This document shows positions 4,801 through 56,510 of a stretch of 64,000 bases of DNA, piece after piece. The notes beneath the pieces were generated by a model. That model saw only the letters and a program-made list of their open reading frames with translations. It did not search any database and was not told the origin of the DNA. The stretch is from Bolinopsis microptera (Eukaryota > Ctenophora > Tentaculata > Lobata > Bolinopsidae): assembly GCF_026151205.1 (NCBI RefSeq), contig NC_087084.1, positions 15,843,337 to 15,907,336 on the forward strand, in the 5' to 3' direction. The position numbers and the translations under genes are program-made. How positions within the stretch are numbered: position 1 is the first letter of the stretch; each line of letters starts with the position of its first letter.

Positions 4801-4958
4801 TCCAATGTCTCCAATGTCCCCAATGTCTCCAATGTCTCCAATGTCTCCAAAAGCTGTGTCTCCAATGTCTCCAATGTCTCCAGGACATGTCTCTGCACCC
4901 TATCTTTTCAAAAAAGACAAAAGACATTGGAGACATTGGAGACATGTCACCCCCCCCC
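1849..4958. mobile_element. 3.1-kb terminal-inverted-repeat element filled with TCC-rich sequence
   Basis: Both ends read G7-9 TGACATGTCTCC inward (1849 onward, and reverse-complemented up to 4958). The heptamer AATAAAG flanks both sides (1842-1848 and 4959-4965), though the last G of the left copy is also part of the G run. Inside each end lies an array of the 9-mer GGAGACATT with CAGCTTTT interruptions, inverted between the ends. A sub-block (GCACC-TATCTTTTC followed by AAAAAGACAAA) is in direct orientation at 1880-1910 and 4896-4921. The 2.7-kb middle (about 2050-4745) is TCC-rich polypyrimidine with CAGTCC/GAGTCC interruptions. No transposase frame is seen, so it would be non-autonomous. 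Long frames across it are repeat translation only. Confidence 0.65.
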
Positions 4959-23488: not shown

Positions 23489-24987
23489 TTACCATGACAA
23501 CATCTCCACCGTCCTGCTGCTCCTGCTATGTCAGATAGACTCTTCTACCTCTAGTAATTCCAGGTATTGTACCTCAAGACAATGTTAATCAGTTTATGAG
23601 AACTGCTATGTTTTTGACTTTGTTCTATAGTGCTCTCATTTGAAGTTAGTCACTACCAGAATAGAACGTTAACCGAGGTAACCAGGGTAACGGGTAACCA
23701 GGGTAACCAGGGTAACGCTAACCAAAGAATCTAAGTGTCTGATTAATATAATGTAAGATAAATCCTCCTCAAACCAGACTAAAACTTCAGATGAGAACAT
23801 TGTAAATATTATAATAATGTGACACTAGTTTCTCTACTTTGTGGTGTCTGGTAAATGGGAAAGCTTGTTACTAGTACTATACTAGTACTATTTGTAAAGT
23901 AGTTGTAAGGCCCCTTGTTACGTGTGTTTAATTTAGTGAGTTTATTTTAATTATCATTAATATTGCTGCACCCACTTTACCCACTTTACTGCCATCACAT
24001 CACAATGAATGTTACGATTAAAAGATTTTTCATCAGTGCCACTTTTTTCTCCACATTTATGTGGCTGCAAGTTTTTATTGTAATTAACCAGTATTTTCTG
24101 GGCATGAACATTATTTTGTTAATTTTATGACTAGGGGAAGTGGTAGTAGGACAGTACTACCCCACCCCAGAAATTCGTTTTGTTAAATGTCTGAAAATGA
24201 GTTTCATGATATCAGAGTATTTTTTCATTATTTTATTGTTCTATTCAAAACACCCTTACTTGGGCAGAAATTAGAAGTTAGAACTATAAAAATACAGTAT
24301 CTATATTTTTATAATAATAAACCCTAATAAGGATTGTAATGAGGGTTGTGAAGGAAAAGATAGGTGCTGACAGTCAAACGTGTAGCGGTACAAAACTGGA
24401 TGGCGCGGCGACAATTTCATGGAGTCCTAAAACTACTTGTTACACTCGCCGCGCGCGCGCCATTGACACGCCACTTTGAAGTGTACCATTCGGCGTCCAC
24501 ACTTCACGATTGCAACCAAATTCGTGACCCGTCACCAATTTTGCACTGGCTTCTGTGTGGAAATTTCATCTAGTTAACCCCATTAATTCCCCCCAGAATA
24601 CTGATGTAACATTCCCTTCAGTACCGAGACGTGAACATGCCCTTAAAGTAATTGTACTAAATCTTGGGAATGCTTTCACTGAGTCAAATAATTCAAATAA
24701 CACATAAACAACTCTAACATCACTGATATAATATCCCATGAATCGTTGGAGAATTTAGCACAAGCAAAGCGTAACCGACTCGGTAAAAATAAGAACTAAT
24801 TAAATCACAGTAATTTCTATTCAAAATAAAGTTCGCTGAAAAATAGATAACTCAAAACCTGAAACATTCCCGCTATATAAATAGATAGGTCAGTTTGTTG
24901 CTAAATTTTTTACAATGATACTGTCACTATTGAAATCCTGGCAGTGGTATCATGGTAACGTGTTGTCATGGTAACGAGTTCTGATAT
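23489..24987. other. Intergenic region after piwi copy 1, with a copy of its last codons
   Basis: 23498-23554 repeats the last 57 bases of the piwi coding sequence (ACATCTCCACCGTCCTG through the TAG) with four or five changes, just after the real stop. GGTAACCAG words follow at 23678-23715. A GC-rich patch at 24395-24475 (CGCCGCGCGCGCGCC) interrupts otherwise AT-rich DNA. No further exon is supported; this lies between two convergent genes. Confidence 0.5.
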
Positions 24988-35900: not shown

Positions 35901-38900
35901 AATATGTCTGGAATGCGATGTAACCAAGGAATGTAGAATTTAACTAAATGCAGTATGTATTGTCTAACCTTATAGCTGGACAATGACCATTGAAAAAATA
36001 AAATAAATAAATGCAGTATGCGAGCTCCGACAAAGTTAAAAAATATAAACCTTATTCGCCCGAGATTCGAGAACAGAGGTCACGTACAGAGGTCACGTAC
36101 GAGAACAGAGGTCACGTACGAGAACAGAGGTCACGTACGAGAACAGAGGTCACGTACGAGAACAGAGGTCACGTACGAGAACAGAGGTCACGTACGAGAA
36201 CAGAGGTCACGTGCGAGAACAGAGGTCACGTACGAGAACAGAGGTCACGTACGAGAACAGAGGTCACGTACGAGAACAGAGGTCACGTACAGGAACAGAG
36301 GTCACGTACAGAGGTCACGTACGAGAACAGAGGTCACGTACGAGAACAGAGGTCACGTACGAGATATAATTGTAAACTCTTTATATTACTATAAATCCCT
36401 CCTCAGCTGAACACAATTAAGACATGTTTTTTTCAATACTCATGACCCCCCCTCCCCTTTTTTGAATCGTATGTAACCACAAACTATAGTTACTATGGTT
36501 ACTGTAGTTACTACAAACTATAGTTATATTACTATAGTTACTAGTTACTATGGTTACTGTAGTTATTGTGGTTACTATGGTTACTATGGTTACTACATAC
36601 TATGATATCATTAGTAAGTTTACACCACTGACCTGGGGTTCGATCCGGCTAATACTACATCTTCATTGTTACTGTAGTGGCCCCACTGGAGACAAAAGTT
36701 GGTTAAGTTTATTTAACATTAAAACATTACACAAGATAAGGTTTTTAGGAGTAATTCACCTACAAAGTCTAAGAGGTTATGTATTCAGAGCGCTTACCAG
36801 CACACTGTAATTACACAATAAATCCCAAAATGATCTTGATAAAGGTTCAAATCTTAATTAACATTATCTTCTAAGCAGGACAAAATAAAGTAAAGTAAAG
36901 TTATAATTCGATAGTTGCTACCCAGCTAGGCAAGTAGTTATATCAATAAATTAATTATAATCTCTATTCAGAGATCTTCATATTTTCATTAATATCCCAA
37001 AACAAATAGAGTTCTACCTAAAATATCTAAGCAATGTAGGTGCATTAAGAATCGCACAGTTAAGTAACTATGACCTAATTATGGTAATTAAGGTAACTAT
37101 GATAACAGTGGTAACTATGGTAACAGTGGTAACTCACCTTACATGCCGCCTTCACGATAGCTCCTCCAAAGAGTTCCTCGTAAGCGTAAGCGTCGCTAAA
37201 GTGGTCCTCGCCTGAAGAAAATATATTTGAATTGATGCAAACTTTTGAATAGCGATTAGAGTTGAAACTCGCGACCTCAAGCAAGTCAATCATGTTTTTG
37301 TTTTCATGTTACAGTTTAGATTTTGATCGTGAACAAATTGCAATATGTGTAGAAAGTGAGGGAAATTGACGTGTACATATAAATTATTGTGTCATAAAAA
37401 AAGGAACGATGTATACGTGATCTGAGATACCAATATCTCAATATCAAAAGGATAGTGTCTAGAAACATTCATAGTCCATGGTGGCAGGTATCAAGTTAAA
37501 CGAAGTTACACTGACTGGCAATGTATACGATTGCCGTCTCCCTCTCTCACCCCTGACCGCTATCAGGGTGCTCCTGAGGATTGAGAATCTAATCCTGGTG
37601 CGCATGTAACACATAATAGCCGCATAGTCTTCTCCTCTCTTCTGGGATAGTTTTTCAGCGAGTCTCTTGTGGTATCTTGTGGCTTGTGGACCCCATCCGC
37701 CACTTGTTGAGTATATAAGTGGGGTAAAGGTGCCTTTTTCCACCTGGATGATTCTGTTGTTGTACTTTTTCATTTTCCTCATTTCATACGGCCAGGTAGC
37801 GCAGTTGGTTAGAACGCCTGTCTTACAATCGTTAGGTTGCGAGTTCGCAACCCACTGACTGCCTGGTCGTGGGGTGAGCGTCGTCGACGTTCAGCTAAGG
37901 ATCATGAGTGGTCTATGCAGCCCCCCGGTCTACTCAGCCGAATACTCGAGAAATCGGGTGTGAGGGTTAAATGAGGAGCTGCACATTGCAGCAAAGTCTC
38001 GGACGAAGAAAGTATGGTACACACTACCTTAACCGTCACTGGCCAAAAAGATCCTTCGGCTTCCTGTAATTGGCTGGTTGCACTTGTGTAACATTGTGGC
38101 TGTTGGAATACACCGAAGTAAAATAAGTGTCTAGATAAAAAATGAGCTTTATAGATCTGTTCCATATCTTTTTTGTCATATGTGGGTGAGTTGGGGTGGG
38201 TAACACAGACATCAAAGAATGTTCGTTCAAATGTGCTCCAGAGACCTCGTGAGGATACATCAGGTGCAGCTCTATCAGCATTGGTACCAACAATTTCTTC
38301 ATTATCAAGGGGTATCAATGCTGGCTCAGTCACTACATCTCTGCATACTTCACGCTGCAGCTCTGCATTTAGATCGCGGATGTTGTTGTGTCTCATAGAA
38401 ACATAGCCACCTTTCTTGCATATAAGTGTGTGATTCACATTATTTCTCTCTCCACAAGCACAGTGAAATGGGGTGTTAGGGATCTCCCAACCATAACGCA
38501 AGTACAGAGCATCACGGAACTCAATCTTGTTCAGGGAGTAGCCAAATCTCTTCAATGGAAGTGCAGTAAGCCAACATCCTGAACCTTTCTCTTTGATGAA
38601 CTGGAGAGATCTCTTTAGGTTGGGATCTCTTACACTGTCCTCTATTGATTTGCTAACTGTAAATAAGTGTTTCTCCTTGATTGCCTTGAGACTTTTTATA
38701 GTGTCATTTTGAATTGACATGTTGTAATGTTCAAGGGTGTTTTGCTGGTTGATAATCAGGTCTGTGAGGTCTTTTGTGATGGTGACTGAGGCTGTGAATT
38801 CTCTATTGCAGTTTTCAACTGGGTTGGAGATACCTAGGCCACCATGTCTGACTGGCAATGCAAATATGGAGCGGTCCAAGTCTGATATGTTCTTACCCAA

Positions 38901-40735
38901 GATTGTTGGAATAAAATCTGTTCTGATGCAATCATCCAATGGTTGAAACAAGTGACTTATACCCGGGATGGTCCTCTGAATGAACGTCCACCGGTGACAA
39001 ATTCCCTTAGTATATGCAGTCAAAGCAGCTTGGGGCTCCTCAACAGCAATTGATGACAACAGCTTGATGTCCTTTTTTTTTTTTTTTTTTTTTTTAAAGA
39101 GAGGCTGGGCCTGGTTGGCCCACGAGAGGATAGCATATGGATGCTTTGCCTACCTCTGGGGTATGGCAGTCCTGTGGGAGGATGCCAGCGGAATCAAGAT
39201 GTGTAATCACGGATGATGGTAAGTGTTGTGGGGTGTGTTATAGATAAACGGTTAGGTGGTGGTTGAGTGTGGAAGAGAGGGGCGAAACAAGACGGCGTTA
39301 AAGTAGTCGCTATGTTACACCTGTCTGGTCCAACTCCTCCGGCACCACTAAGCGTTTAGTGTGGTTTGTAAAGTTGACAATGGTGGAGATGTGTTGGTTG
39401 TCGAATATGTCATTGACAGAGAGGTAGTAGTCCCGGAAATATTGACCTCTTATTTGGGCAATAGCCGGGCACTGTCCGAGAAAGTGTGAGACAGTCTCCT
39501 CTCCGTCGCCGCATTTTGGACAAGCACTTGTGTCTGATTTGTGAATGGTGTGTAGGTGTTTGTTGAGGCCACAATGTCCCGTGATGAGGTGCACTGCAGT
39601 TCTGTAATTTTGTCTGTTGTTGCTGAGTGTAGTGTTGAGATTTTTGATGATGTTGATGTTTTTATGTCCAAGTGTCAGTTTAGTGTGTCTGGGACCATTA
39701 GTAATCCATGATTCTTGATTAAGTTTTGTGACTTTGTCGTTGATCAGGCGTTTGATGTAAGATTGTGGAATTGGGCAATTCAAAGTGGATTCACTGGTTG
39801 TGCCATTTTTGGCCAGCTCGTCTGCTTTTTCATTACCCCACAATCCGATGTGTGCTGCTATCCATCTGATCTCTAAGGTGTTAGTGGATCCGAGTGTATT
39901 GAGGGTGTCGTAGCAGTCTCTAGTGGTTCTACTCCTCGTTGAAGGTGAGGATATAGCTTGAATAGAGGAGAGACTGTCTGACCATATGATGATATGTGTG
40001 TTTGTGTAAGTTGATAGATATTTACAAGCTTCGATGATGGCAGTGAGTTCAGTTTGATAAACGGTGCAATAATCAGGAAGCTTGAATGATCTTTCATCTA
40101 GTGTAGTGTTGTTGTTGTCTGTGGTGATAATATAACCAGCCCCGCTACCTGAGTCTGTGCGTGACCCGTCTGTGTAGCAGGTGATGGTTTCACTGGGGAT
40201 GTTGTCGATGGTGTTTTGGAGTGAGCCTCTATATTCAATGTTGTCAGCTCCAGGAGTGGTGACCGTGAAGCGTCGTTCAAGCATCATGGTTGGTATAGAT
40301 AGGTCTCTCTCTGCTTTGGGTGGTATGTTGAGGTCTACCATGAATTGTTTGTTGATAGTGGTGTGAGTTGTGATGGTACCTTTTCTGGGGGCGATAGTTT
40401 CGAGGGTTAGGCTTCCATATGCTTGAAGCCTGGCTGTGCCCTTTGCTGCTTCACCTCTCAGGAAAAGTATGATATCTGGAGTGTTAGTGTCCTGACACCA
40501 TTTATGGACTTTATCTGAGACATATTTGTTCTTAAAAGCTTCGCTGCCAATTGCTGCACCCAAATGGCGTTCTCCTTCAGACTCAATTTTAATATACGTC
40601 ACGTACATTGAATTTGGAGCGCGATCTTAGTTTTAGCACCATCACGTGGCAATCAAAATATCAAGCTACACTTAAATAATATGAGATAATGAATTATAAA
40701 GTCTCACCAGTGCATCTATCGATAAAGACAAGCAT
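32957..40735 (-). CDS. Translationally controlled tumour protein (TCTP) homologue
   Basis: Seven minus-strand exons join in phase to 188 aa plus TAA: 40708-40735, 37138-37211, 36633-36685, 35718-35781, 35227-35346, 34336-34458, 32957-33061. All introns are GT-AG. The N terminus (MLVFIDRCTG, then EDHFSDAYAYEELF) matches the family's opening M-x3-x-D-x3-(G/D)-(D/E)-x-FSDAY pattern. VLAGSNPSAEDGEEAGTE matches the loop with its G-N-x-S-A-E signature. FAKFILPQWKN and IFYIGDGEGD match the K-x-WQF-x-GE region before the C terminus. TCTP is a cytosolic protein linked to translation, growth and calcium binding in animals; usual length is about 170 aa. It is divergent and lacks the usual C-terminal cysteine (it ends RTEKF). 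Intron 1 is 3.5 kb because it hosts nested retroelements. Intron 6 is mostly minisatellite plus a MITE. Confidence 0.8.
33085..34276. repeat. 26-bp minisatellite in TCTP intron 6
   Basis: About 25 copies of AGTAAGTCAGTGTTGGCATG-GTAACT, with TCTG, GGCT and GTCATG variants, run from 33640 to 34276, and one or two copies lie at 33085-33123. The MITE at 33126-33631 splits the array, so the MITE arrived after the repeat existed. Confidence 0.9.
33126..33631. mobile_element. 506-bp MITE with TA target duplication
   Basis: The ends are perfect inverted repeats starting CCTTACAAGACATATTTAT, flanked by TA on both sides (33124-33125 and 33632-33633). TA duplication is typical of Tc1/mariner-type transposition. 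Inside, a block of about 40 bp (GACCGAAATTTTGGCGGTCC and following GAAAATATGGCGAAATT) is present twice in direct orientation. No transposase is encoded, so it would be mobilised in trans. Confidence 0.85.
34909..35170 (+). mobile_element. 5'-truncated non-LTR retrotransposon (RT C-terminal tail)
   Basis: The plus-strand frame 34909-35139 begins RRLKMAGHCIRHPEL and continues LVLWEPTHGRAQQGRPRQSY and EELRTLMRDRDIW to a stop. This RLAGHC-x-RHPEL-x-ASKLVLWEP-x-HG-x-GRP pattern is the familiar C-terminal end of reverse transcriptase ORFs in many invertebrate LINEs. A TAG microsatellite follows at about 35147-35165, like a LINE 3' tail. It lies in TCTP intron 5, antisense to the gene. Confidence 0.7.
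35500..35715. repeat. Degenerate AAGGTGTAACATGRTGA repeat
   Basis: About 11 imperfect units of 17-19 bp lie in TCTP intron 4 and run up to the donor of exon 35718-35781 (GGTGTTAC then CTGG). The last units resemble the donor text. Confidence 0.7.
36068..36365. repeat. 17-bp minisatellite (GAACAGAGGTCACGTAC)
   Basis: About 17 copies lie in TCTP intron 3. Each carries AGAGGTCACGTAC, which contains AGGTCA, the nuclear-receptor half-site, and an ACGT core. Open plus-strand frames here are repeat translation. Confidence 0.85.
37788..38142 (+). mobile_element. tRNA-derived SINE inserted in retroelement A
   Basis: The head at 37790-37868 has a polymerase III A box (TAGCGCAGTTGGTTAGAACG) and a B-box-like GCGAGTTCGCAACC, with TCTTACAA where an anticodon loop would be. 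An unrelated body of about 270 bp follows. It interrupts the element A frame between KAH and MRKMKK. The cloverleaf arms are too mismatched for a working tRNA. No clear target duplication longer than 2 bp is visible. Confidence 0.65.
39073..40487 (-). mobile_element. LINE B with RNase H domain, 5'-truncated, inserted in element A
   Basis: The minus-strand frame runs from 40487 to the stop at 39310. It contains an RNase H domain with its acidic residues (CYTDGSRTDSGSGAGY, QTELTAIIEA, IWSDSLSSIQAI, AAHIGLWGNEKADELAK) and a zinc knuckle (CPKCGDGEETVSHFLGQCP). A 3' UTR of about 200 bp and a poly(A) tail (T run 39073-39105 on the plus strand) follow. TGTCCT flanks both ends (39068-39073 and 40488-40493) as a target duplication. 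The domain order fits RNase-H-bearing LINEs of the I/Jockey type. The RT domain is missing, so it is a dead-on-arrival copy. Confidence 0.8.
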
Positions 40736-41290: not shown

Positions 41291-41390
41291 NNNNNNNNNN
41301 NNNNNNNNNNNNNNNNNNNNNNNNNNNNNNNNNNNNNNNNNNNNNNNNNNNNNNNNNNNNNNNNNNNNNNNNNNNNNNNNNNNNNNNNNN
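41291..41390. other. Assembly gap (100 N)
   Basis: Exactly 100 N immediately before the 56-bp array. Upstream exons of the kinase gene could be missing here, and the real array length is uncertain. Confidence 0.98.
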
Positions 41391-44300
41391 AGTAGACTTC
41401 ATAATTTTCATGTTGGCAGGAAAAACCTTTTCCTTTCTCTCAGGGACTAGTAACTTCATAGAGTTCATTTTTGCAGGTAAACTTTTTTCCTTCTTTTCAG
41501 GGACAAAGTAGACTTCATAGATTTCATGTTGCGGGAAACTATTCCTTTCCCCTCAGGGACTAAATTCATAAGTTCTTTGTTGCAGGTAAACTTTCCTTTC
41601 CCTCTCAGGGACTAGTAGACTTCATAGAGTTCATTTTTTGGAGGTAAACTTTTTCCCTTTCTCTCGGGGACTAGTAAACTTCATAGAGTTCATTTTGGGC
41701 AGGAAACTTATTCCTTTCCCCTCGGGACTAGTAATTTTCATAGAGTTCATGTTGGCAGGTAAACTTTTTCCCCTTTCTCTCAGGGACTAGAGCCCTTTAA
41801 ATTTCCCATGTTCAGGTAAACTATTCCTTTTCTGGGGGACTAGGACTTCATGGGTTTTCAGGGTTGGGGCGGGTAAACAATTTCCTTTTCTCTCGGGGAC
41901 AGTAGACTTCATAGATTTAAAATTTTTGGCAGGTAAACTTTTTCCCCTTTTCTGGGGACTAGTAGACTTCATAGATTTTTCATGTTGCAGGAAAAACTTT
42001 TTCCCTTTTCTCTCAGGGACAAGTAGACTTCATATTTTAAATTTTGGGGCAGGAAAAATTTAATTCCTTTCTCTCAGGGACTAGTAGACTTCATAGGTTC
42101 ATGTTGCAGGAAAAAACTTATTTCCTTTTTCTCTCAGGGACTAGTAAACTTCATAAGTTCAGGGTTGCGGGAAAACCCTTATTCCTTTCTCTCGGGGCCC
42201 TAGTAACTTCATAGAGTTCATTTTGGCGGGAAAACCCAAATTCCCCTTTCCTCGGGGACTATAGCCCTTAAATAGAGTTCATGTGAAAGGTAAACTTATT
42301 CCTTTCTCTCGGGGACTATAACTTCATAGATTTTCATGTTGCGGGGTAAACTTTTCCTTTCTCTCGGGGACTAGTAACTTCATAGATTTTCATGGGGCAG
42401 TAAACTTTTCCCTTTCTCTCAGGGACTAGTTACTTCAAGATTTTCATTTGGGCAGGTAAACTTTTTCCCTTTCTCTCAGGGACTATTTAGATTTCCCTAA
42501 TTTTCATTTTGGCGGGAAAACCCTTTTTCCCCTTTCTCTCAGGGACTATTAGCTTCATAGGTTAAATTTTGGGCAGGAAATTTATTCCTTTCTTTAAAGG
42601 GACTAGTAGACTTCATAAGTTCAGTTGCAGGTAAACTTATTCCTTTCTCTCGGGGAAATAGTAGACTTCATAGATTTTCATTTTGGGCCGGAAAACCCTT
42701 TTTCCTTTTCTCTCAGGGGGGGGGAAAATTTGGGGGGGGGGGGGTTTTTTTGGGGGAAACAAGTAGATTTTCATAGATTCATTTTTTGGCAGGAAAAACT
42801 TTTTTCCTTTTCTTCAGGGACTATTAGCCCTTCATAGAGTTCATGTTCAGTAAACTTTTTTCTTTCCTCTCGGGGGCCAGTAGACTTCATAGAGTTCATG
42901 TTGCAGGTAAATTTATTCCTTTCTCCCCAGGACTATAGATTTCATAGATTTCATTTTGCGGGAAAAAACTATTCCTTTCCTCAGGGACTAGTAACTTCAT
43001 AGATTTTCATGTTGCAGGTAAATTATTCCTTTCTCTCAGGGACAAAGTAAAACTTCATAGATTTCATGTTCCCAGGTAAACATTCCTTTCTCTCAGGGGG
43101 ACTAGTAATTCATAGAGTTAAAATTTTTTGAGGGTAAACTATTCCTTTCTCTCAGGGACTAGTAGACTCATAGAGTTAAATTTTTCAGGTAAACTTTTTC
43201 CCTTTTCCCTCTCAGGACTAGAACTTCATAGATTTCATGGGTTTTCCCCCAAACCCTTTCGGCATTTTGGTTAAATTTACCCCTTTCTCTCGGGGGACTA
43301 GTAGACTTCATAGAGTTTCATTTTTCCCGGGTAAATTTATTCCTTTCTCTCGGGGAAACTAGTAGATTTTCAAGAGTTCATGTTGCGGTAAATTTATTCC
43401 TTTCTCTCAGGGACTGGGTAGATTTTCCTAGAGTTCATGTTGCAGGTAAACTTATTCCTTTCCTCGGGGGACTATAGACTTCATAGAGTTCATTTTGCGG
43501 GTTTAAACATTCCTTTCTCTCAGGGACTAGTAAAACTTCATAGGGGTTCATTTGCAGGTAAATTTTTTTTCCCTTTTTTCTCGGGGGGGGGGAACTAGTA
43601 GACTTCAAGAGTTCATTTTGGGCAGGTAAATTATTCCTTTCTCTCAGGGACTATAGACTTCAAAAAGTTCATGTTCCCAGGTAAACAACCCTTTTCCTCT
43701 CAGGGACAGTAACTTCATAGTTTTTAATTTTGGGGCAGGAAAATTTATTTTTTCTCTCAGGACAGAAGACTTCAAAGAGTTCATGTTCCCAGGTAAACTT
43801 TTTCCCTTTTCTCTCGGGACTAGTAGCTTCATAGAGTTCATGTTGCAGGTAAACTTTTTCCTTTCTCTCAGGGACTAGTAGCCCTTCATAGAGTTCATGT
43901 TGCAGGAAAATTTATTCCTTTCTCTCAGGGACTAGTAACTTCATAGGGGTTTCAGGGGTTGCGGGAAAAAAAAAACTTTTTCCCTTTCTCTCGGGGAACT
44001 AGTAACTTAAATAGAGTTCAGGGTTGCGGGTAAATTTATTCCTTTCTCCCCGGGACTATAGACTTCATAGATTTTAAAGTTGGGGAAAAATTTTTCCCTT
44101 TTTCTCTCAGGGACTAGTAAACTTCATAGAGTTCATTTTTGCAGGAAAAACCTTTTTCCCTTTCTCTAAAGGACTGTAGCCCTTCATAAGTTCATTTTGG
44201 GGCCGGTTAAACTTTTTCCCTTCTCTCAGGGACTATAAAATTCATAGATTTTCATTTCAGGTAAACTTTTCCCTTTCTCTCAGGGACATTAGACTTCATA

Positions 44301-45445
44301 ATTTTCAGGGTTTGCGGGTAAACAAAATTTCCTTTCCCCTTTCGGGGACAAGTGACTTCTAGAGTTCATTTTTCAGGTAAACTTTTTTCCTTTCTCTCGG
44401 GGGACTGGGAGACTTCATAGAGTTCATGGGGGCAGGTAAACTTTTTCCCTTTCCTCAGGGACTAGTAATTTCATAGAGTTCATTTGAAGGAAAACCTTTT
44501 TCCTTTCTCTCGGGGACTAGTAACTTCATAGAGTTCATGGGGGGCGGGTAAACTTATTCCTTTCTCACAGGGATAGTAAACTTCATAATTTTCATTTTGC
44601 AGGTAAACTTTTCCCTTTTTCTCTCAGGGACAAGTAGACTTCAAAAGAGTTAAATTTGGGCAGGTAAACTTATTCCTTTCTCTCAGGACTAGTAGACTTC
44701 AAAATTTTTCCTGTTCGGGAAAAATTTATTCCTTTCTCTCAGGGCCTAGTAGCTTCATATTTTTTCAGGGGAAGGAAAAACTATTCCTTTTCTCTCAGGG
44801 ACTAGTAGCCCTTCAAAGAGTTCAGGGTTCCCAGGAAATTTATTCCTTTCTCCCCCAGGGACTAAAAGATTTCATAGAGTTCATTTTGGGAAAGGAAAAA
44901 TTTTTTCCTTTCCCCTTCGGGGACTAGTAACTTCATAAAATTTTTTTTCATGTTGCAGGTAAACTTTTTCCCTTTTCTTCAGGGACTAGTAACTTCATAA
45001 GTTAAAATTTTTCAGGTAAACTTATTCCTTTCTCTCAGGACTGTAGACTTCATGAGTTCATTTTTGAAAGGAAAAACTTATTCCTTTTTTCCCCAGGGAC
45101 TAGTAGATTTCATGATTCATGTTGCAGGAAAACTTTTTCCCCTTTCTCTCGGGGCCTAGTAGACTTCAAAAGTTCATTTTTGCGGGGTAAACATTCCTTT
45201 CTCTCAGGGACTAGAAAGGACTTCATAGAGTTCATTTTGGGCATTTAAATTTAAACCCCTTTCTCTCGGGGACAAGTAGATTTCATAGAGTTCATGTTGA
45301 AGGAAAACAATTCCTTTCCCCTAAAGGGGACTAGTGGGGACTTCAAAGATTTCATTTTGCGGGAAAAAAATTTATTCCTTTCTCTCGGGGCCCAAGTAGA
45401 CTTCATAGGTTCAGGGTGGCAGGAAATTTATTCCTTTCTCTCAGG

Positions 45446-45494
<49 letters not shown>

Positions 45495-48400
45495 AATTTA
45501 ATTTCATAGATTCAGGTTGCGGTAAACTTTTCCTTCTCTCAGGGACTAGTAGACTTCATAATTCATTTTGCAGGAAAACTTTTCCTTTTTCTCTCGGGGC
45601 CTATTAAACTTCATGAGTTCATGTTGCAGGTAAATTTATTCCTTTCTCTCAGGGACTAGTAACTTCATAGAGTTCATGTTCAGGTAAACTATTCCTTTCT
45701 TTTCAGGGACAGTAACTTCATAGAGTTCATGTTGCGGGAAAACCTTTTTCCCTTTCTCTCAGGATTTGAACTTCATAAGTTCATTTTGCAGGTAAATTTA
45801 TTCCTTTTTTCCCCGGTTTTATTTAATTTCATTATTTTCAGGGTTGCAGGTAAACTTTTCCCTTTCCCCTGGGGGACTATTAGACTTCATAGATTTTAAA
45901 TTTTGGGGCGGGAAAACTTTTTCCCTTTCTCTCAGGGACTAGTAGACTTCAAAATTTTTTCATTTTGGGCAGGTAAATTTACCCTTTCTCCGGGGACTAT
46001 AGACTTCATAATTTTCATGTTGCAGGAAAAAAAAATTTTCCTTTTCTCTCAGGGACTAGTAGACTTCAAAAGTTCATTTGGGGCAGGTAAACAATTTCCT
46101 TTCTCTCAGGACTAGTAAAACTTCATAGAGTTCATGTTGCAGGAAAACTTTTTCCCTTTTTCTCTCAGGGCCTAGTAGACTTCTAGAGTTCTTTTTGGGC
46201 GGGTAAACTTTTTCCTTTCCCTCAGGGACTATTAGACTTCATAGAGTTATTTTCAGGAAAAAATTTCCTTTCTCTCAGGGACAAGTAGACTTCATAGATT
46301 TTCATGTTCAGGTAAATTTATTCCTTTCTCCAGGGACATGGGATTTTATAGAGTTCATTTTGGGCCGGTAAACTTATTCCTTTCTCCAGGGACAAGAAGA
46401 TTTCATAGATTTTCTTGTTGCGGGAAAACTTTTCCCTTTTTCTCTCAGGGACAGAAGACTTCATAGGGGTTCATTTTGGGGCAAAAAAACCCTTTTCCCT
46501 TTTCCCTCTCAGGGCTAGAAAGATTTCTTTAGAGTTCATTTTGGGGGCAGGAAAACTTTTCCTTTCTCTCGGGGAACTAGTAGATTTTATAGAGTTCATT
46601 TTTGGCAGGTAAACTATTCCTTTCCCCTCGGGGGGGGACTGTGGGACTTCATAGAGTTCATTTTGGGGAAAGGAAAATTTATTCCTTTCTCTCAGGGACT
46701 ATAACTTCATAGATTCATTTTGGGGTAAAAAAAAAAAAAAAGGGGGTAAACTTTTCCTTTCTTCTCGGGGACTAAAAGATTTCCCTAAGTTCATGTTGCG
46801 GGAAAACCTTTTTCCCCTTTCTCTCGGGGCCCTAGTAATTTCAAAAAGTTTCATGTTGCAGGTAAACTATTCCTTTCCCCTCGGGGGACGGGAATTTCCC
46901 ATAGATTTAAATGTTCAGGTAAACTTTTTCCCTTTTCTCCCCAGGGATTTAGAAAAGATTTTAAATTTTAAAGTTGCAGGTAAACTTATTCCTTTCCTCG
47001 GGGACTGGGTAGACTTCATAGAGTTCATTTTGGGGCAGGTAAACTTTTTCCCTTTCTCTCGGGAAATTAGAACTTAAGTTTTCATTTTGGGCAGGTAAAT
47101 TTATTCCTTTCTCTCAGGGACTATTAACTTCATAGATTTTCATTTTGGGCAGGAAAACTTTTCCTTTCTCTCAGGGACTAGTAGACTTATGAGTTCATGT
47201 TCCCAGGAAAACTTATTCCTTTCTCTCAGGGACAAGTAGATTTCATAGATTTTCATGTTGCAGGAAAATTTAACCCCTTTCTTCAGGGACTAGTAGACTT
47301 CATAGATTCCCATGTTGCAGGAAATTTATTCCTTTCTCTCAGGGACTATTTAACTTCTTAGAGTTCATTTTTGGCAGGAAAACTTTTTCCCTTTTCCCTC
47401 TCAGGGACGGGTAACTTCAAAATTTCATGTTGCAGGTAAACTATCCTTTCTCTCGGGGGGGGGGGGGGGGGGGGGGGACTATTTGACTTCATAGAGTTCA
47501 GGTTGCAGGAAAAACTTTTCCTTTCTCTCAGGGACTATAGACTTCATAGATTTTCATTTTGGGCAGGAAAACTTTTTTCCTTTCTCTCGGGGGGAACCAA
47601 AGACTTCATAGATTTTCATGTTGCAGGTAAACTTATTCCTTTTTCCGGGGACTGGGTAGATTTCAAAGATTTTCATTTTGGCAGGTAAACTTATTCCTTT
47701 CTCCAGGGACTAGTAGACTTCATAAGTTAAGTTGCAGGAAAACTTTTTCCCTTTCTCTCAGGGACTAGTAGACTTCATAGAGTCTTTTTCAGGTAAACTT
47801 TTTCCCTTTTCCCTCTCAGGGATTTAGTAGACTTCATAAGTTAAATTTTTGGGGGCAGTAAACTTTTTTCCTTTCCCCCCCAGGACAGAGACTTCTTAGA
47901 GTTCATGTTGCGGGAAAACCTTTTTCCTTTCTCTCAGGGACAATTAATTTCAAAGATTTCATTTTGGGCAGGTAAACTTTTTCCCTTTCTCCCCGGGGAA
48001 CTGAAAAACTTCATAGAGTTCATTTTGCAGGAAAACATTTTTTAATTCCTTTCCTCAGGACAAAGTAGACTTCATAAAAGTTCATGTTGCGGGGGTAAAC
48101 TTTTTCCTTCCCTAAAGGGCCCTAGTAGACTTCATAAGTTCATGTTCAGGAAAAATTTATTCCTTTCTCTCAGGGACTGGGTAGACTTCATAGAGTAAAA
48201 TTTTCGGGTAAACAATTCCTTTCTCCCAGGGACTAGTAACTTCATAATTTCATTTCAGGTAAATTTATTCCTTTTCTTCAGGGGACATTAACTTTATAGG
48301 GGGGGGTTCAGGGGTTTGGCGGGGGTTAAATTCCCTTTTCTTCAGGGACAAAAGACTTCTTTGGGGTTCATTTTTCCCGGGTTTAAACTTTTTCCTTTCC

Positions 48401-51400
48401 CCCTTCCCCCCCCCCCCCCTTTCCCCCCTTTTTCCCCCCCCCCCTTTTTTTTCTCTCGGGGACTATAGACTTCATAGAGTTCAGTTCAGGAAAATTTATT
48501 CCTTTCTCTCGGGGACAGTAACTTCATAAGTTCATTTTGGGCAGGTAAAATTTAAACCCTTTTTCTCTCAGGGACTATAATTTCATAGAGTTAAATGTTG
48601 CAGGTAAACTTATTCCTTCTCTCAGGGCCCAGTAATTTCATAAGTTCATTTTGGGGCGGGAAACTTTTTCCTTTCTCTCAGGGACTGAAAGGCTTCATAA
48701 TTTCATTTTGGGGCAGGTAAACTTTTTCCCCTTTCTCTCGGGACTAGTAACTCATAAGTTAAATTTTCGGGTTAAACTATTCCTTTCTCTCAGGGACTAG
48801 TAGACTTCAAGATTTTCCATGGGGGCGGAAACTTTTCCCTTTCTCTCGGGGAAACAAGAGATTTTTATAGATTTTCAGGGTTTGCAGGTAAACTTTTTCC
48901 TTTTCTCTCAGGGCCTATAGACTTCATAGAGTTCATTTTGGGCAGGTAACTTTTCCTTTCTCTCAGGGACTAAGACTTCATAAAAGTTCATGTTAAAGGT
49001 AAATTTATTCCTTTTCCCCCGGGGCCTAGTAACTTCAAGTTTTTCATTGGGCGGGTAAACTTTTTTCCTTTTCTCTCAGGGACATTAATTTTCATAATTT
49101 CCAGGGTTGCGGTAAACTTTTTCCTTTCCCCTCAGGACTAGTAGACTTCAAGAGTTCATGTTGCAGGTAAACTTTTTCCCTTTTTCCTCAGGGACAGTAG
49201 ACTTCTTTGATTCATTTTGGGGCAGGTAAACTTATTCCTTTCTCTCGGGGACTATAGACTTCATAGAGTTTCATGTTGCGGGAAAATTTATTCCTTTCTC
49301 CCCAGGGACTAGTAAAACTTCATAGAGTTCATGTTTTTGGGCAGGAAAACCCTTATTCCTTTCTCTCGGGGACTAGTAGATTTCCCAAGATTTCCCTGTT
49401 CCGGTAAACTTTTTCCCTTTTTCTCTCGGGGACAGTAGACTTCATAGATTTCCCTTTTGCGGGAAAACCCTTTTTTCCTTTTCCTCTCGGGGACTAGTAA
49501 ACTTCATAGATTTCATGTTCCCAGGTAAACTTTTTCCTTTCCCCGGGGACTAGTAGCCCTTCAAAAGTTTCATTTTGGGCGGGAAATTTATTCCTTTTCC
49601 CCGGGGGCCTAGTAGATTTCATAGAGTTATTTTGGGGCGGGTAAACTATTCCTTTCTCTCAGGGACTAGTAGACTTCATAGAGTTCATGTTGCAGGTAAA
49701 CTTATTCCTTTCTCTCAGGGACTAGGTAGACTTCATAGAGTTCATGTTGCAGGTAAACTATTCCTTTCTCTCATGGACTAGTAGACTTCATAGAGTTCAT
49801 GTTGCAGGTAAACTATTCTTTCTCTCATGGACTAGTAAGTAGACTTCATAGAGTTCATGTTGCAGGTAAACTTATTCCTTTCTCTCAGGACTAGTAGACT
49901 TCATAGAGTTCATGTTGCAGGTAAACTTATTCCTTTCTCTCAGGGACTAGAGACTTCATAGAGTTCATGTTGCAGGTAAAATTATTCCTTTCTCTCAGGG
50001 ACTAGTAGACTTCATAGAGTTTCATGTTGCAGGTAAACTTATTCCTTTCTCTCAGGGACTAGTAGACTTCATAGAGTTCATGTTGCAGGTAAACTTATTC
50101 CTTTCTCTCAGGGACTAGTAGACTTCATAGAGTTCATGTTGCAGGTAAACTATATTCCTTTCTCTCAGGGACTAGTAGACTTCATAGAGTTCATGTTGCA
50201 GGTAAACTTATTCCTTTCTCTCAGGGACTAGTAGACTTCATAGAGTTCATGTTGCAGGTAAACTATTCCTTTCTCTCAGGGACTAGTAGACTTCATAGAG
50301 TCATGTTGCAGGTGTAAACTATTCATTTCTCTCAGGGACTAGTAGACTTCATAGGTTCATGTTCAGGTAAACTATTCCTTTCTCTCAGGGACTAGTAGAC
50401 TTCATAGAGTTCATGTTGCAGGTAAACTATTCCTTTCTCTCAGGGAATAGTAGACTTCATAGAGTTCATGTTGCAGGTAAACTATTCCTTTCTCTCATGG
50501 ACTAGTAGACTTCATAGAGTTCATGATTTGCAGGTAAACTTATTCCTTTCTCTCAGGGACTAGTAGACTTCATAGAGTTCATGTTGCAGGTAAACTTATT
50601 CCTTTCTCTCAGGGACTAGTAGACTTCATAGAGTTCATGTTGCAGGTAAACTTATTCCTTTCTCTCAGGGACTAGTAGACTTCATAGAGTTCATGGTTGC
50701 AGGTAAACATATTCCTTTCTCTCAGGGACTAGTAGACTTCATAGAGTTCATGGGGGGCAGGTAAACTTTTCCCTTTTTTCCCCTGGGGGGGGGGGGGGAC
50801 TAGTAGATTTCATAATTTCATTTTGGGCAGGAAAACTTTTTTCCTTTTCCTCTCGGGGAAATAGTAGACTTCATAAGTTCATTTTGGGGGCGGGTAAACT
50901 TATTCCTTTCCCCCTCAGGGACTAGTAACTTCAAGATTTCCCATGTTGCAGGAAAAACTTTTTCCCTTTTTTCCTCTCGGGGACTAGTAGACTTCATAAT
51001 TTCCCTGTTGCAGGAAAATTTATTCCTTTCCTGGGGGACATTTAACTTAAAAGGGGGGGAGTTCATTTTTGCGGGTTAAATTTATTCCTTTCCCTCGGGG
51101 AAATTTTTTTTAAACTTCAAAGATTTCAGGGTTGAAATTTTAAAAACTTTTTCCCCTTTTTCTCTCGGGGACTAGTAACTTCATAGAGTTCATGTTGCAG
51201 GTAAATTTATTCCTTTTCTCCCAGGGACTAGTAGACTTCATAGATTTTCATTTTGGGAGGAAAACAAACCCTTTGCTCTCAGGGACTAGAGATTTCATAA
51301 GTTCATTTTGGGCGGGAAAATTTTATTTTTTTCCTCTCAGGGACTATTAGACTTCATAGATTTTAAGGTTGGGAAAGGTAAACTTTCCTTTCTCTCAGGG

Positions 51401-54400
51401 ACTATAACTTCATAAAGTTCATGTTGCAGGTAAACTTTTTCCCTTTTTCTCTCAGGGACTAGTAAACCTTTTCATAGGGGTTAAATTTTGGGCAGGTAAA
51501 CTTTTTCCTTTTCTCTCAGGGCCAAAGAAACTTCATAGAGTTAAATTTTTCAAAAAAAAACTTTTCCCTTTTCCCTCTAAAGGGAAAAAAAAAAAATTAA
51601 AAAAAAAAAAATTTTTTTGGGGATAAACTTCATGAGTTCATGTTGCAGGGAAAAATTTTTCCCTTTTCTCTCAGGGCCCAGTAGACTTCAAAAGGTTCAT
51701 TTTTGCAGGAAAAATTTAATTTCCCTTTTCCCAGGGACTAGTAGACTTCATAGAGTTCATTTTCGGGGGAAAACTTTTTTCCTTTCTCTCGGGGAAACAA
51801 AATGACCCCCTAGAGTTCATGTTGCAGGTAAATTTATTCCTTTCTCTCAGGGCCTAGTAGACTTCATAAGTTCAATTTTGCGGGAAACTTTTTCCCTTTT
51901 CCCTCTCAGGGACAGTAACTTCATGGGATTTTCCTGTTGCAGGTAAACTTTTTCCCTTTTCTCTCAGGGACTATAACTTTAGGGTTCATTTTGGGGGCGG
52001 GTAAACTTTTCCCTTTTTTTCCCCTCAAGGACTAGTAGACTTCATAGATTTTCATTTTGGCAGGTAAACTTTTTCCCTTTCTCTCAGGGACTAGTAAATT
52101 TTCATAGATTTCCCTTTTTGCGGGTAAACTTATCCTTTCTCTCAGGGACTAGTAGACTTCATAGAGTTCATGTGCAGGGTAAACTATCCTTTCTCTCAGG
52201 GGACTAGTAGACTTCCATAGAGTTCATGTTGCAGGTAAACTTATTCCTTTCTCTCAGGGACTAGTAGACTTCATAGAGTTCATGTTGTCAGGGTAAACTA
52301 TTCCTTTCTCTCAGGGACTAGTAGACTTCATAGAGTTCAAGTTGCATGTAAACTTATTCCTTTCTCTCAGGGACTAGTAGACTTCATAGAGTTCATTGTT
52401 GGCAGGTAAACTTATTCCTTTCTTCTCAGGGACTAGTAGACTTCATAGAGTTCATGTTGCAGGTAAACTGATTCCTTTCTCTCAGGGATAGTAGACTTCA
52501 TAGAGTTCATGTTGCAGGTAAACTTATTCCTTTCTCTCAGGGACTAGTAGACTTCATAGAGTTCATGTTGCAGGTAAACTATTCCTTTCTCTCAGGGACT
52601 AGTAGACTTCATAGAGTTCATGTTGCAGGTAAACTTATTCCTTTCTCTCAGGGACTAGTAGACTTCATAGAGTTCATGTTGCAGGTAAACTTATTCCTTT
52701 CTCTCAGGGACTAGTAGACTTCATAGAGTTCATGTTGGCAGGTAAAGCTATTCCTTTCTCTCAGGGACTAGTAGACTTCATAGAGTTCATGTTGCAGGTA
52801 AACTTATTCCTTTCTCTCAGGGACTAGTAGACTTCATAGAGTTCATGTTGCAGGTAAACTTATTCCTTTCTCTCAGGGACTAGTAGACTTCATAGAGTTC
52901 ATGTTGCAGGTAAACTATTCCTTTCTCTCAGGGACTAGTAGACTTCATAGAGTTCATGTTGCAGGTAAACTTATTCCTTTCTCTCAGGGACTAGTAGACT
53001 TCATAGAGTTCATGTTGCAGGTAAACTTATTCCTTTCTCTCAGGGACTAGTAGACTTCATAGAGTTCATGTGGCAGGTAAACTTATTCCTTTCTCTCAGG
53101 GACTAGTAGACTTCATAGAGTTCATGTTGCAGGTAAACTTATTCCTTTCTCTCAGGGCCGGGACTAGTAGACTTCATAGAGTTCATGTTGCAGGTAAACT
53201 ATTCCTTTCTCTCAGGGACTAGTAGACTTCATAGAGTTCATGTTGCAGGTAAACTTATTCCTTTCTCTCAGGGACTAGTAGACTTCATAGAGTTCATGTT
53301 GCAGGTAAACTTATTCCTTTCTCTCAGGGACTAGTAGACTTCATAGAGTTCATGTTGCAGGTAAACTTATTCCTTTCTCTCAGGGACTAGTAGACTTCAT
53401 AGAGTTCATGTTGCAGGTAAACTTATTCCTTTCTCTCAGGGACTAGTAGACTTCATAGAGTTCTTGGTTGCAGGTAAACTTATTCCTTTCTCTCAGGGAC
53501 TAGTAGACTTCATAGAGTTCATGTTGCAGGTAAACTTATTCCTTTCTCTCAGGACTAGTAGACTTCATAGAGTTCATGTTGGCAGGTAAACTTATTCCTT
53601 TCTCTCAGGGGACTAGTAGACTTCATAGAGTTCATGTTGCAGGTAAACTTATTCCTTTCTCTCAGGGACTAGTAGACTTCATAGAGTTCATGTTGCAGGT
53701 AAACTTATTCCTTTCTCTCAGGGACTAGTAGACTTCATAGAGTTCATGTTGCAGGTAAACTTATTCCTTTCTCTCAGGGACAGTAGACTTCATAGAGTTC
53801 ATGTTTGCAGGTAAACTTATTCTTTCTCTCAGGGACTAGTAGACCTTCATAGAGTTCATGTTGCAGGTAAACTTATTCCTTTCTCTCAGGGACTAGTAGA
53901 CTTCATAGAGTTCATGTTGCAGGTAAACTTATTCCTTTCTCTCAGGGACTAGTAGACTTCATAGAGTTCATTTGCAGGTAAACTTATTCCTTTCTCTCAG
54001 GGACTAGTAGACTTCATAGAGTTCATGTAGCAGGTAAACTTATTCCTTTCTCTCAGGGGACTAGTAGACTTCATAGAGTTCATGTTGCAGGTAAACTTAT
54101 TCCTTTCTCTCAGGGACTAGTAGACTTCATAGAGTTCATGTTGCAGGGTAAACCTATTCCTTTCTCTCAGGGACTAGTAGACTTTCATAGAGTTTCATGT
54201 TGCAGGTAAACTATTCCTTTCTCTCAGGGACTAGTAGACTTCATAAGTTCATGTTGCAGGTAAACTATTCCTTTCTCTCAGGGACTAGTAGACTTCATAG
54301 AGTTCATGTGCAGGTAAACTATTCCTTTCTCTCAGGGACTAGTAGACTTCATAGAGTTCATGTTGCAGTAAACTTATTCCTTTCTCTCAGGGACTAGTAG

Positions 54401-55273
54401 ACTTCATAGAGTTCATGTTGCAGGTAAACTTTCCTTTCTCTCAGGGACTAGTAACTTCATAGAGTTCATGTTGCAGGTAAACTTATTCCTTTCTCTCAGG
54501 GACTAGTAGACTTCATAGAGTTCATGTTGCAGGTAAACTACTCTTTCCTCTCAGGGGACTAGTAGACTCATAGAGTTCATGTTGCAGGTAAACTATCCTT
54601 TCTCTCAGGGACTAGTAGACTTCATAGAGTTCATGTTGCAGGTAAACTATTCCTTTCTCTCAGGGACTATAGACTTCATAGAGTTTCATGTTGCAGGGTA
54701 AACTATTCCTTTCTCTCAGGGACTAGTAGACTTCATAGAGTTCATGTTGCAGGTAACTATTCCTTCTCTCAGGGGGAATTTGGTTTTGGAAGGAAATTAA
54801 GGGGACTGGTTCATGATTTCAGGTTGGGAAAGGCCTTTTCCCCGGGGGTTGTAATTTTGGTTAATTGGGGTAAATTATTTTTTTGGGGTGAGTTATAATT
54901 TATGGGGGGGGCGGGTAAACTACCCTTTTTCCGGGGGATTAAAACCCCAAGAGCAGGGGGTAAATTTTTTACTTCAGGATAGGACCATAGATTTCCCATG
55001 TTCAGGTAAACTTTTCCCTTTTTCCCAACTGTGGGCCCAATTAGCTTTTGAGGAAACACCCCCGGGGAAAAGGTAAACTTTTTCTTTCATAAAAAAAATT
55101 TTTTCCTGGGATTTGTAAAACTTCATGGGTTTCAGGGTTGCGGGAAATTTATTCCTTTTCTCCGGGGAAATAGTAACTTCAAAAGGGTTCTTTGTTGCGG
55201 GGAAAAAAAAAACTTATTCCTTTCTCTCAGGGACTATAGACTTCAAAAAAAATTTTCATGTTGCAGGTAAACA

Positions 55274-55309
<36 letters not shown>

Positions 55310-56075
55310 TTTAAAACTTTTTCCCTTTTCCTCCCCGGGACTAGAGATTTTCAAGAGTTCATGTTGCAGGAAAACCCTTTTTCCCTTTTCTCTCGGGGAC
55401 TTAGACTTCATAGATTTCATGTTCCCGGTAAACTTTTTCCCTTTCTCTCGGGGCCAGTAGACTTCATAGAGTTCATTTTGCAGGAAAAACTATTCCTTTC
55501 TCTCGGGGACAAGTAACTTCATAGAGTTCTTTGTTGGAAAGGTAAACTTACCCTTTTTCCCTCAGGGACAGAAAGACTTCATAATTCATGTTACGGGTTT
55601 AAACTTATTCCTTTCTCTCAGGGGGGAACATAACTTCATAAAAGTTTCCAATGTTGCGGGAAACTTTTTCCCTTTTCTCTGGGGGGACAAAGTAGACTTC
55701 ATAGAGTTCATTTTGGGCGGGAAAAACTTAGCCTTTCTCTCAGGGACTTTTAGATTTCCCAAAAGGGGGTTCATGTTGCAGGTAAACTTATTCCTTGCGC
55801 TCAGGGACGAGTTAGACTTCATAGAGGTTCATGTTGCAGGTAAACTTAGTCCGTTTCTCTCAGGGACTAGTAGACTTCATAGAGTTCTTGTTGCATGGTA
55901 ACCTTATTCCTTCTCTCAGGGACTAGTAGACCTTCATAGAGTTCATGTTGGGCAGGTATACTATTCCTTTCTCTCAGGGACTAGTAGACTTCATAGAGGT
56001 TCATGTTGCAGGTAAACTATTCCTTGCTCTCAGGACCTAGTAGACTTCATAGAGTTCATGTTACAGGTAAACTTA
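41391..56075 (+). repeat. Giant 56-bp tandem array, each unit a 33-nt exon with its splice sites
   Basis: The clean unit (best at 49670-50740 and 52150-54770) reads TTATTCCTTTCTCTCAG, then 33 nt from GGACTAGTAGACTTCATAG to CATGTTGCAG, then GTAAACT. The 33 nt encode GLVDFIEFMLQ. In the order acceptor, exon, donor they form a complete microexon, and the next acceptor comes after only 23 nt. The frame joins to the kinase exon at 56394 (MLQ then VDPARRPDI), so the unit looks like an amplified kinase microexon. 14685 bp divided by 56 is about 262 units. 41391-49620, 50750-52130 and 54770-55700 are heavily corrupted, with homopolymer expansions (for example G runs at 45448-45493 and 47456-47477) that look like consensus error rather than natural divergence. 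Confidence 0.85.
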
Positions 56076-56235
56076 TACACTGGGGGAGGTGTCTTCTTAA
56101 ACTCGGCACAATATGGCCACTAAGTTGGGGTGTCTTCTTTTACCCATCATTTCGTTAATTTTATCCCAGTTCTAAAGTGTGTAGTATAGTAGTATAGTAG
56201 TATAGTAGTGTGCAGTTAATACTCCTTTATAAATA

Positions 56236-56407
56236 ATTTAATATTATTAAATGCAGGTTGATCCAGCAAGAAGTATAGTATGAGTGTGCAGTTAATACTC
56301 CTTTATAAATAATATTATTAAATGCAGGTTGATCCAGCAAGTAGTAGTAGTGTGCAGTTAATACTCCTTTATAAATAATATTATTAAATGCAGGTTGATC
56401 CAGCAAG
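56236..56407 (+). repeat. Triplicated acceptor junction of the kinase last exon
   Basis: AAATGCAG followed by GTTGATCCAGCAAG occurs with exon-like starts at 56257, 56328 and 56394, spaced 71 and 66 bp. Only the third continues into the coding exon; the first two reach a stop within 9 to 17 codons. Confidence 0.9.
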
Positions 56408-56510
56408 GAGGCCTGATATTGACACTGTGATACAGAAGCTGGACATGTTGGAAAGTAACTCCGGCTTCACTAGCGACGATAATCTTTATGTAGAAAACAT
56501 CAAGTTTTAA
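56394..56510 (+). CDS. Last exon of a protein kinase (C-lobe end)
   Basis: Acceptor AAATGCAG is followed by 38 codons and TAA, beginning VDPARRPDIDTVIQKLDMLE. The D-P-x-x-R-P-D-I pattern is the conserved Arg-containing segment after helix H of protein kinases. Preceded by LVDFIEFMLQ from the 56-bp array it resembles the NAK family (AAK1/GAK/BIKE), where MLQ-x-(D/N)P occurs, but the fragment is too short to decide. No N-lobe, glycine loop or HRD/DFG exon is visible upstream in this window, so the gene is mostly missing, probably in the gap or elsewhere. The protein ends ENIKF. Confidence 0.65.
   Translation, partial: VDPARRPDIDTVIQKLDMLESNSGFTSDDNLYVENIKF

Follow-up and report, generated by a model that had tools for sequence, protein, structure and literature searches.

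In a 64,000-nucleotide stretch of Bolinopsis microptera DNA (C13:15843337-15907336, hereafter the window), a short exon of a gene for an STK16-type protein kinase is repeated in a tandem array whose 55/56-bp units each contain an acceptor, the complete 33-nt exon and a donor. Judging from the sequence, we consider it about 60% probable that the array is a minisatellite of the kind called 'mirage' in amphioxus, here enclosing a whole phase-0 exon, and that it is tolerated, with one copy or very few usually entering the mRNA. The genome searched comprised 264.65 Mb in 232 contigs.

The repeating unit and its splice signals

The array in the window lies on the plus strand at 41391..56076. Its left edge directly abuts a 100-N scaffold gap (41291..41390), its right edge is at about 56076, and its 14,686 bp correspond to about 265 unit-lengths, most of them in low-quality sequence. 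An intact unit consists of the acceptor TTCCTTTCTCTCAG, the 33-nt phase-0 exon GGACTAGTAGACTTCATAGAGTTCATGTTGCAG and the donor GTAAAC, and both exon boundaries lie inside every intact unit. The exon core translates as GLVDFIEFMLQ, and successive exons are separated by spacers of 22 or 23 nt. The 47-bp acceptor-exon-donor core was found 36 times in the window at up to three mismatches, while none was expected from 100 shuffles. Together with the period kept over 41391-56076, this result confirmed the tandem array of acceptor-exon-donor modules proposed in the original prediction, which was made from the letters of the window. The 56-bp unit with 23-nt spacers given there exists, but 55-bp units with 22-nt spacers occur as well.

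Intact units were confined to two plus-strand blocks, one at 49655..50651, marked by core matches, and a larger one at 52307..54758, marked by core matches and spacers. The window array contains 37 exact 33-nt exons. Outside the two blocks the period is kept, at about 65-78% matches in rows of Tandem Repeats Finder, but indels and homopolymers are frequent. These degraded portions look like poor consensus rather than evolution, and the predicted number of about 260 modules is therefore an estimate of length: it agrees with the 265 unit-lengths, but not with the number of units that can be read intact.

The splice signals of the unit were scored with a matrix built from the same few local sites that it scored. 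The unit acceptor outscored all 18 local acceptors, and the unit donor scored at least as high as 11 of the 15 local donors. Outside the arrays, equally high scores were reached by 5 of 10,911 AGs and 93 of 12,510 GTs. These scores support the idea of a phase-0 33-nt exon with good splice signals.

The spacers were also suspected to be too short for usual splicing, and they are: local introns measure 124-3024 nt (n = 15, from the kinase gene and a Piwi gene in the window) versus 22/23 nt in the array. Retention of a spacer would shift the frame into stops. In human, about 50 nt are needed between the 5' splice site and the branch site for spliceosome assembly (excerpt of PMC6692369), ultrashort introns of 43-65 nt are spliced (excerpt of PMC8363638), and mutually exclusive splicing counts short distances among its recognised causes (excerpt of PMC5740500). 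Since the spacers fall below the human requirement of about 50 nt, neighbouring copies should exclude each other.

The host gene

The upstream kinase exons, which the original prediction had left to be searched for, were located 55-61 kb left of the window array, beside a second piece of array. Exons 1-7 lie 5' of this left piece; MGGWLCSC..., YAIKRL, RGSLHDL...HRDVKP, NVLISDDG...MDFGS, YRAPELFE and SLGCVLYEM are read there from exons with splice sites and matching phases. Exons 1-6 join into 226 codons with no stop and with AG and GT borders throughout. Exon 7 passes into a garbled, G-rich sequence of about 930 nt, which is followed by the left array piece. The last coding exon (VDPARRPDI...VENIKF, then stop) lies at 56394..56510 on the plus strand and was identified by protein match and by its phase-0 junction. 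It is the sole genome match to a 49-aa query (E up to 0.001), and the expected in-frame, phase-0 joining of the 33-nt exon to VDPARRPDI at 56394 holds.

The spliced protein, carrying 14 X for the garbled residues of exon 7, was compared with solved structures. The best match was human STK16 (2buj_A, 4.1e-63), followed by GAK (9e-33), and the Pkinase domain PF00069 was matched at 2.4e-39. These matches support the earlier assignment of the host to the protein kinases and place it, by its closest solved structure, in the STK16 type. By inspection, the start of exon 1 (MGGWLCSC) fits the pattern MG..C.C, which we take to be the N-terminal acylation motif of human STK16; the structure alignment begins only at residue 14. 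In STK16, the stretch just before VDPHQRPHI, presumably helix H of the kinase C-lobe, is matched by GLVDFIEFMLQ with no gap. This gapless alignment suggests that the kinase needs the piece encoded by the exon, and at least one copy is probably required for a normal kinase. A retrocopy, which would have served as proof of splicing, was not seen in genome searches with parts of the protein.

Intron 3 of the kinase gene contains a 739-aa open frame (L013 1681-3897) without a Pfam match, which resembles a reverse transcriptase of the Penelope type that ends in a GIY-YIG-like tail.

A larger array of nearly identical units

The exact 33-nt exon occurs 499 times in the genome, 149 times forward and 350 times in reverse. 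All 149 forward copies lie within the stretch of C13 that was read. The left array piece (C13:15829990-15837174, 7,185 bp) is outside the window and holds 112 exact exons at C13:15830060-15836217; it closes with several hundred bases of uninterrupted T, noisy array and a block of 6,162 N. More array is carried by the unplaced contig C85 (30,807 bp), both ends of which are noisy array. The 350 reverse exons trace to C85 on the evidence of a longer pattern, all 60 reverse matches of which are on this contig. Of C85, 19,808 of the 30,807 bases were read, and these stretches contain 204 exact exons (133 + 71) as well as homopolymer runs of 245-762 nt. In its noisy blocks the density of unit 8-mers is 0.05-0.12, versus 0.0014 in non-array DNA. 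A rare unit variant, in which the donor GTAAAC is replaced by GTATGT, was observed in two array units of the stretch L057 (C85:26000-30807) and could serve as a positional marker in long reads.

The three assembled parts sum to 7,185 + 30,807 + 14,686 = 52,678 bp, or about 950 unit-lengths; this is a value by length, not a measured copy number, and it includes homopolymers, 10,999 unread bases of C85 and possibly a mixture of two alleles. The 14.7 kb originally taken as the full extent thus proved too small, the array being about 3.6 times larger in the assembly.

The units are homogeneous wherever they can be read cleanly. In the left piece, all 112 exons found at up to three mismatches are exact, and all 111 spacers have one of two forms that follow one another irregularly, 59 being GTAAACTATTCCTTTCTCTCAG and 52 GTAAACTTATTCCTTTCTCTCAG. 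At the same threshold, four stretches together gave 369 exons, of which 353 are exact, units with indels being uncounted. Because exon and spacer are equally homogeneous, array turnover, and not selection on codons, best explains the identity of the copies.

The irregular order of the two spacer forms argues against a simple assembler loop. When the order was written as a code, the longest runs recurring within pieces were 17 and 19 units, versus maxima of 16 and 15 in 30 shuffles. Between the left piece and C85 the longest shared run was 12, and again 12 when more of C85 was included, with a mean of 11.4 and a maximum of 19 for shuffled codes. The two codes share no more than shuffled ones do, and the left piece and C85 therefore look like different stretches. 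The array pieces, which come from unphased alleles, differ in spacer code.

Which copies would be spliced

The array, the exon, its splice signals and phase, the identity of the gene, the spacer lengths and the near-identity of the cleanly read copies are read directly from the sequence, and the following scheme is proposed to account for them. A boundary-spanning minisatellite unit came to enclose the complete 33-nt exon of the STK16-type kinase together with its acceptor and donor, and would have grown to tens of kilobases through unequal exchange or slippage, which would also keep the copies nearly identical. Such an array may be tolerated because each copy gives the same in-frame 11 residues and the spacers are too short to join neighbours. 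If a 22/23-nt spacer cannot serve as an intron, adjacent copies would be mutually exclusive through steric hindrance, the mature mRNA would usually hold one copy or very few, and the kinase would still be made. The likeliest copy to be used would be the 3'-most one (56034..56066, plus strand; DLVDFIEFMLQ followed by GTAAAC), because it is the sole copy with an intron of normal length (327 nt) and no further copy stands before the last exon. Any single consensus copy would give the same protein, and the 3'-most copy would change one residue.

Several observations weigh against this scheme. About 14 residues at the end of exon 7 are garbled, as are the roughly 930 nt ahead of the left array piece, so that an intact junction into the array is not visible. 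Skipping one copy leaves 77-79 nt, which is less than the shortest local intron but falls in the human range, and skipping two leaves 132-135 nt, which is within the range of local introns. Since steric exclusion is limited to neighbours, several copies per mRNA remain conceivable. The 3'-most copy reads GACCTA...TTACAG where internal copies read GGACTA...TTGCAG, and its differences could be sequence errors. Duplications across splice junctions are, moreover, not enriched in the region. In the kinase gene they span 5 of 14 junctions (the exon 3 donor and the acceptors of exons 4, 5, 7 and the last exon), with 637 of 2,709 positions lying in duplications as background, and in the Piwi gene they span 2 of 19 junctions versus 648 of 4,170 positions (two donors being placed one base off). 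Control stretches covered a wide range, with 106 of 4,000, 108 of 3,000 and 2,740 of 5,000 positions duplicated. Junction-centred duplication as a special process was dropped, there being no clear excess over background in the two genes.

There is a small chance that hundreds of identical cassettes compete and are used stochastically, sometimes several at once, giving variable multiples of the 11-residue helix segment. If this were true, satellite DNA would be a functional reservoir of exons and the 22/23-nt spacers would act as spacing rulers for the spliceosome. That non-neighbouring copies are spliced together, so that the C-lobe of the kinase gains variable multiples of 11 residues, is unlikely. 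Its appeal lies in the 33-nt length, the phase 0 and the strong signals of the exon, and in the 132-135 nt left by two skipped copies; but the kinase fold would probably not survive repetition of this segment, and no repeat was seen there in the alignments to STK16 and GAK (among the 3 of 13 matches shown).

It is rather doubtful that the gene on the haplotype with the long array is damaged or dead, and that the other haplotype makes the kinase from a shorter array. Elsewhere on C13 there are similar counterparts of the contigs between the array pieces, which suggests two unmerged haplotypes, and array length may therefore differ between alleles; the retroelement-like frame in intron 3 would also fit a damaged gene. 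Exons 1-6 and the last exon nevertheless read openly, and neither exons 6-7 nor the last exon turned up a second time in genome searches. The search with exons 6-7 gave the two exons themselves and five matches at 42-55% identity, which look like other kinases.

We find it improbable that the copy number is mostly a product of assembly, with noisy reads, gap filling and unmerged haplotypes having enlarged an array of modest size. Large parts are garbled and contain homopolymers of hundreds of bases, the array pieces are located at scaffold gaps, and the recurring spacer-code runs of 17 and 19 units exceed those of 30 shuffles (16 and 15). According to PMC10232365, which also reports Iso-Seq reads of B. 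microptera, the likely source assembly was made with wtdbg, HiRise and TGS-GapCloser. Against inflation stand 112 consecutive clean units whose spacer order is irregular overall, and codes that do not coincide between different pieces (longest shared run 12).

A dedicated mechanism like that of Dscam exon clusters, which would pick exactly one copy among hundreds, is very improbable: the anatomy resembles an extreme mutually exclusive cluster, but with near-identical copies (353/369 exact) the choice would have almost no coding consequence. A mobile or viral element was rejected as the source of the unit; the unit had no match in IMG/VR viral contigs, where records near this genome were possibly left out, and the forward exact exons are confined to the C13 stretch.

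Contigs placed between the two array pieces

About 41 kb, in two contigs bounded by N gaps, lie between the left array piece and the window array. The second contig (17697..41290), which holds the Piwi gene, is largely collinear with the window from 57790 onward, downstream of the last kinase exon, and is a probable misplaced contig of the alternative haplotype. The identity was 82-99% among 60 of the 71 alignment rows, many of which come from one 26-bp repeat and one of which is inverted. The first contig (1..17596), ahead of the first 100-N gap, is possibly a second misplaced haplotype contig: a 291-bp probe from it has a copy with 96% identity at C13:15762735-15763022, upstream of the kinase gene, and no match was found when this contig was compared with the flanks that the analysis covered. 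On sequence grounds, the 41 kb are thus probably alternative-haplotype contigs misplaced between two halves of one unassembled array, which fits the methods of the likely source assembly as given in the part of PMC10232365 at hand. The identity along 17697-41290 is in places low for alleles, which speaks against this reading, and a real segmental duplication is a further candidate. A true interruption of the kinase gene by the Piwi gene was thought unlikely, because the intervening contigs match elsewhere on C13 (one probe for the first contig).

The Piwi gene lies at 19323-23488, with PF02171 in its last part; its stop codon is spanned by a 66-bp duplication (23432-23555). A counterpart of the Piwi region, with 96% identity, starts near window coordinate 65225 and is probably the other haplotype. 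An RNase H domain (PF00075) on the minus strand at 39313-40626 probably belongs to a retroelement; no Pfam match was obtained for the 415-aa frame next to it (37905-39149).

Repeats elsewhere in the region

The acceptor of the last kinase exon lies in a triplication of about 66 bp (56196..56407, plus strand), with decoy acceptors before 56257 and 56328 and the true one before 56394. Ahead of the true exon 4 of the kinase gene, its acceptor and first bases (AGAGGATCCCTGCATGAC) are found in at least four further places (L013 1640-1790 and 4200-4490; C13:15824976-15827826), which is a milder version of the array process in the same gene.

Two further repeats in the window are possible one-boundary mirages. 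At 11550-12200, on the minus strand, about 23 copies of a 28-bp unit carry a donor-like AAACG/GTAAGT after an apparent coding stretch; at 12412-12511 a 33-bp sequence repeated three times likewise seems to extend across a donor. No Pfam match was obtained for the open frame at 12392-12793. A CTC-rich repeat of 2.7 kb with strong GC skew occupies 2051-4741; on either side of it, at 1904-2051 and 4756-4882, are AGACATTGG-type repeats that run in opposite orientation.

Discussion

The nearest known kind of structure is the amphioxus mirage. Mirages in Adh3, BflGb6 and BflGb9 are minisatellites that span an exon-intron boundary and are reported as apparently not disturbing regular splicing; that of BflGb6 has 6 and 3 units in two haplotypes (PMC3087553, in the part available). 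The original statement that no such array has been described was therefore too strong. The kinase array shares the boundary-spanning unit with the amphioxus mirages, but the globin mirages as presented in that part span one boundary with few units, whereas the kinase array spans both, encloses a whole exon and extends to hundreds of copies over tens of kilobases. The unit that spans both boundaries, the complete coding exon and the hundreds of repeats are what is new relative to amphioxus. Searches of an open-access library, which lacks most subscription papers, listed no report of a whole exon amplified into such an array.

Other systems share single features with the kinase array. Mutually exclusive clusters, Dscam among them, are arrays of alternative exons in which short spacers can enforce exclusion (excerpt of PMC5740500). 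The exons in such clusters differ and their choice matters, whereas the copies here are near-identical. Exon-containing tandem units of variable number are also known as whole-exon variable-number repeats in LPA KIV-2 and in the titin or nebulin repeats, where the copies are spliced in and the units are larger, with normal introns. The kinase array is likewise an exon-containing tandem, but its units measure 55/56 bp and its spacers fall short of the usual intron length. Internal tandem repeats of human segmental duplications (mean unit 30 bp, 4 copies) change exon and intron lengths and create splice sites; unlike the kinase array, those described in the excerpt of PMC2812944 include no complete exon cassette at hundreds of copies.

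In conclusion, our results extend boundary-spanning minisatellites from amphioxus to comb jellies and suggest that a minisatellite can engulf a whole coding exon and leave the reading frame intact, which bears on exon and intron gain by tandem duplication. The kinase gene would be a natural minigene experiment, in which hundreds of near-identical cassettes compete in one transcript, and its mRNA could reveal the rules of proximity, exon definition and steric spacing.

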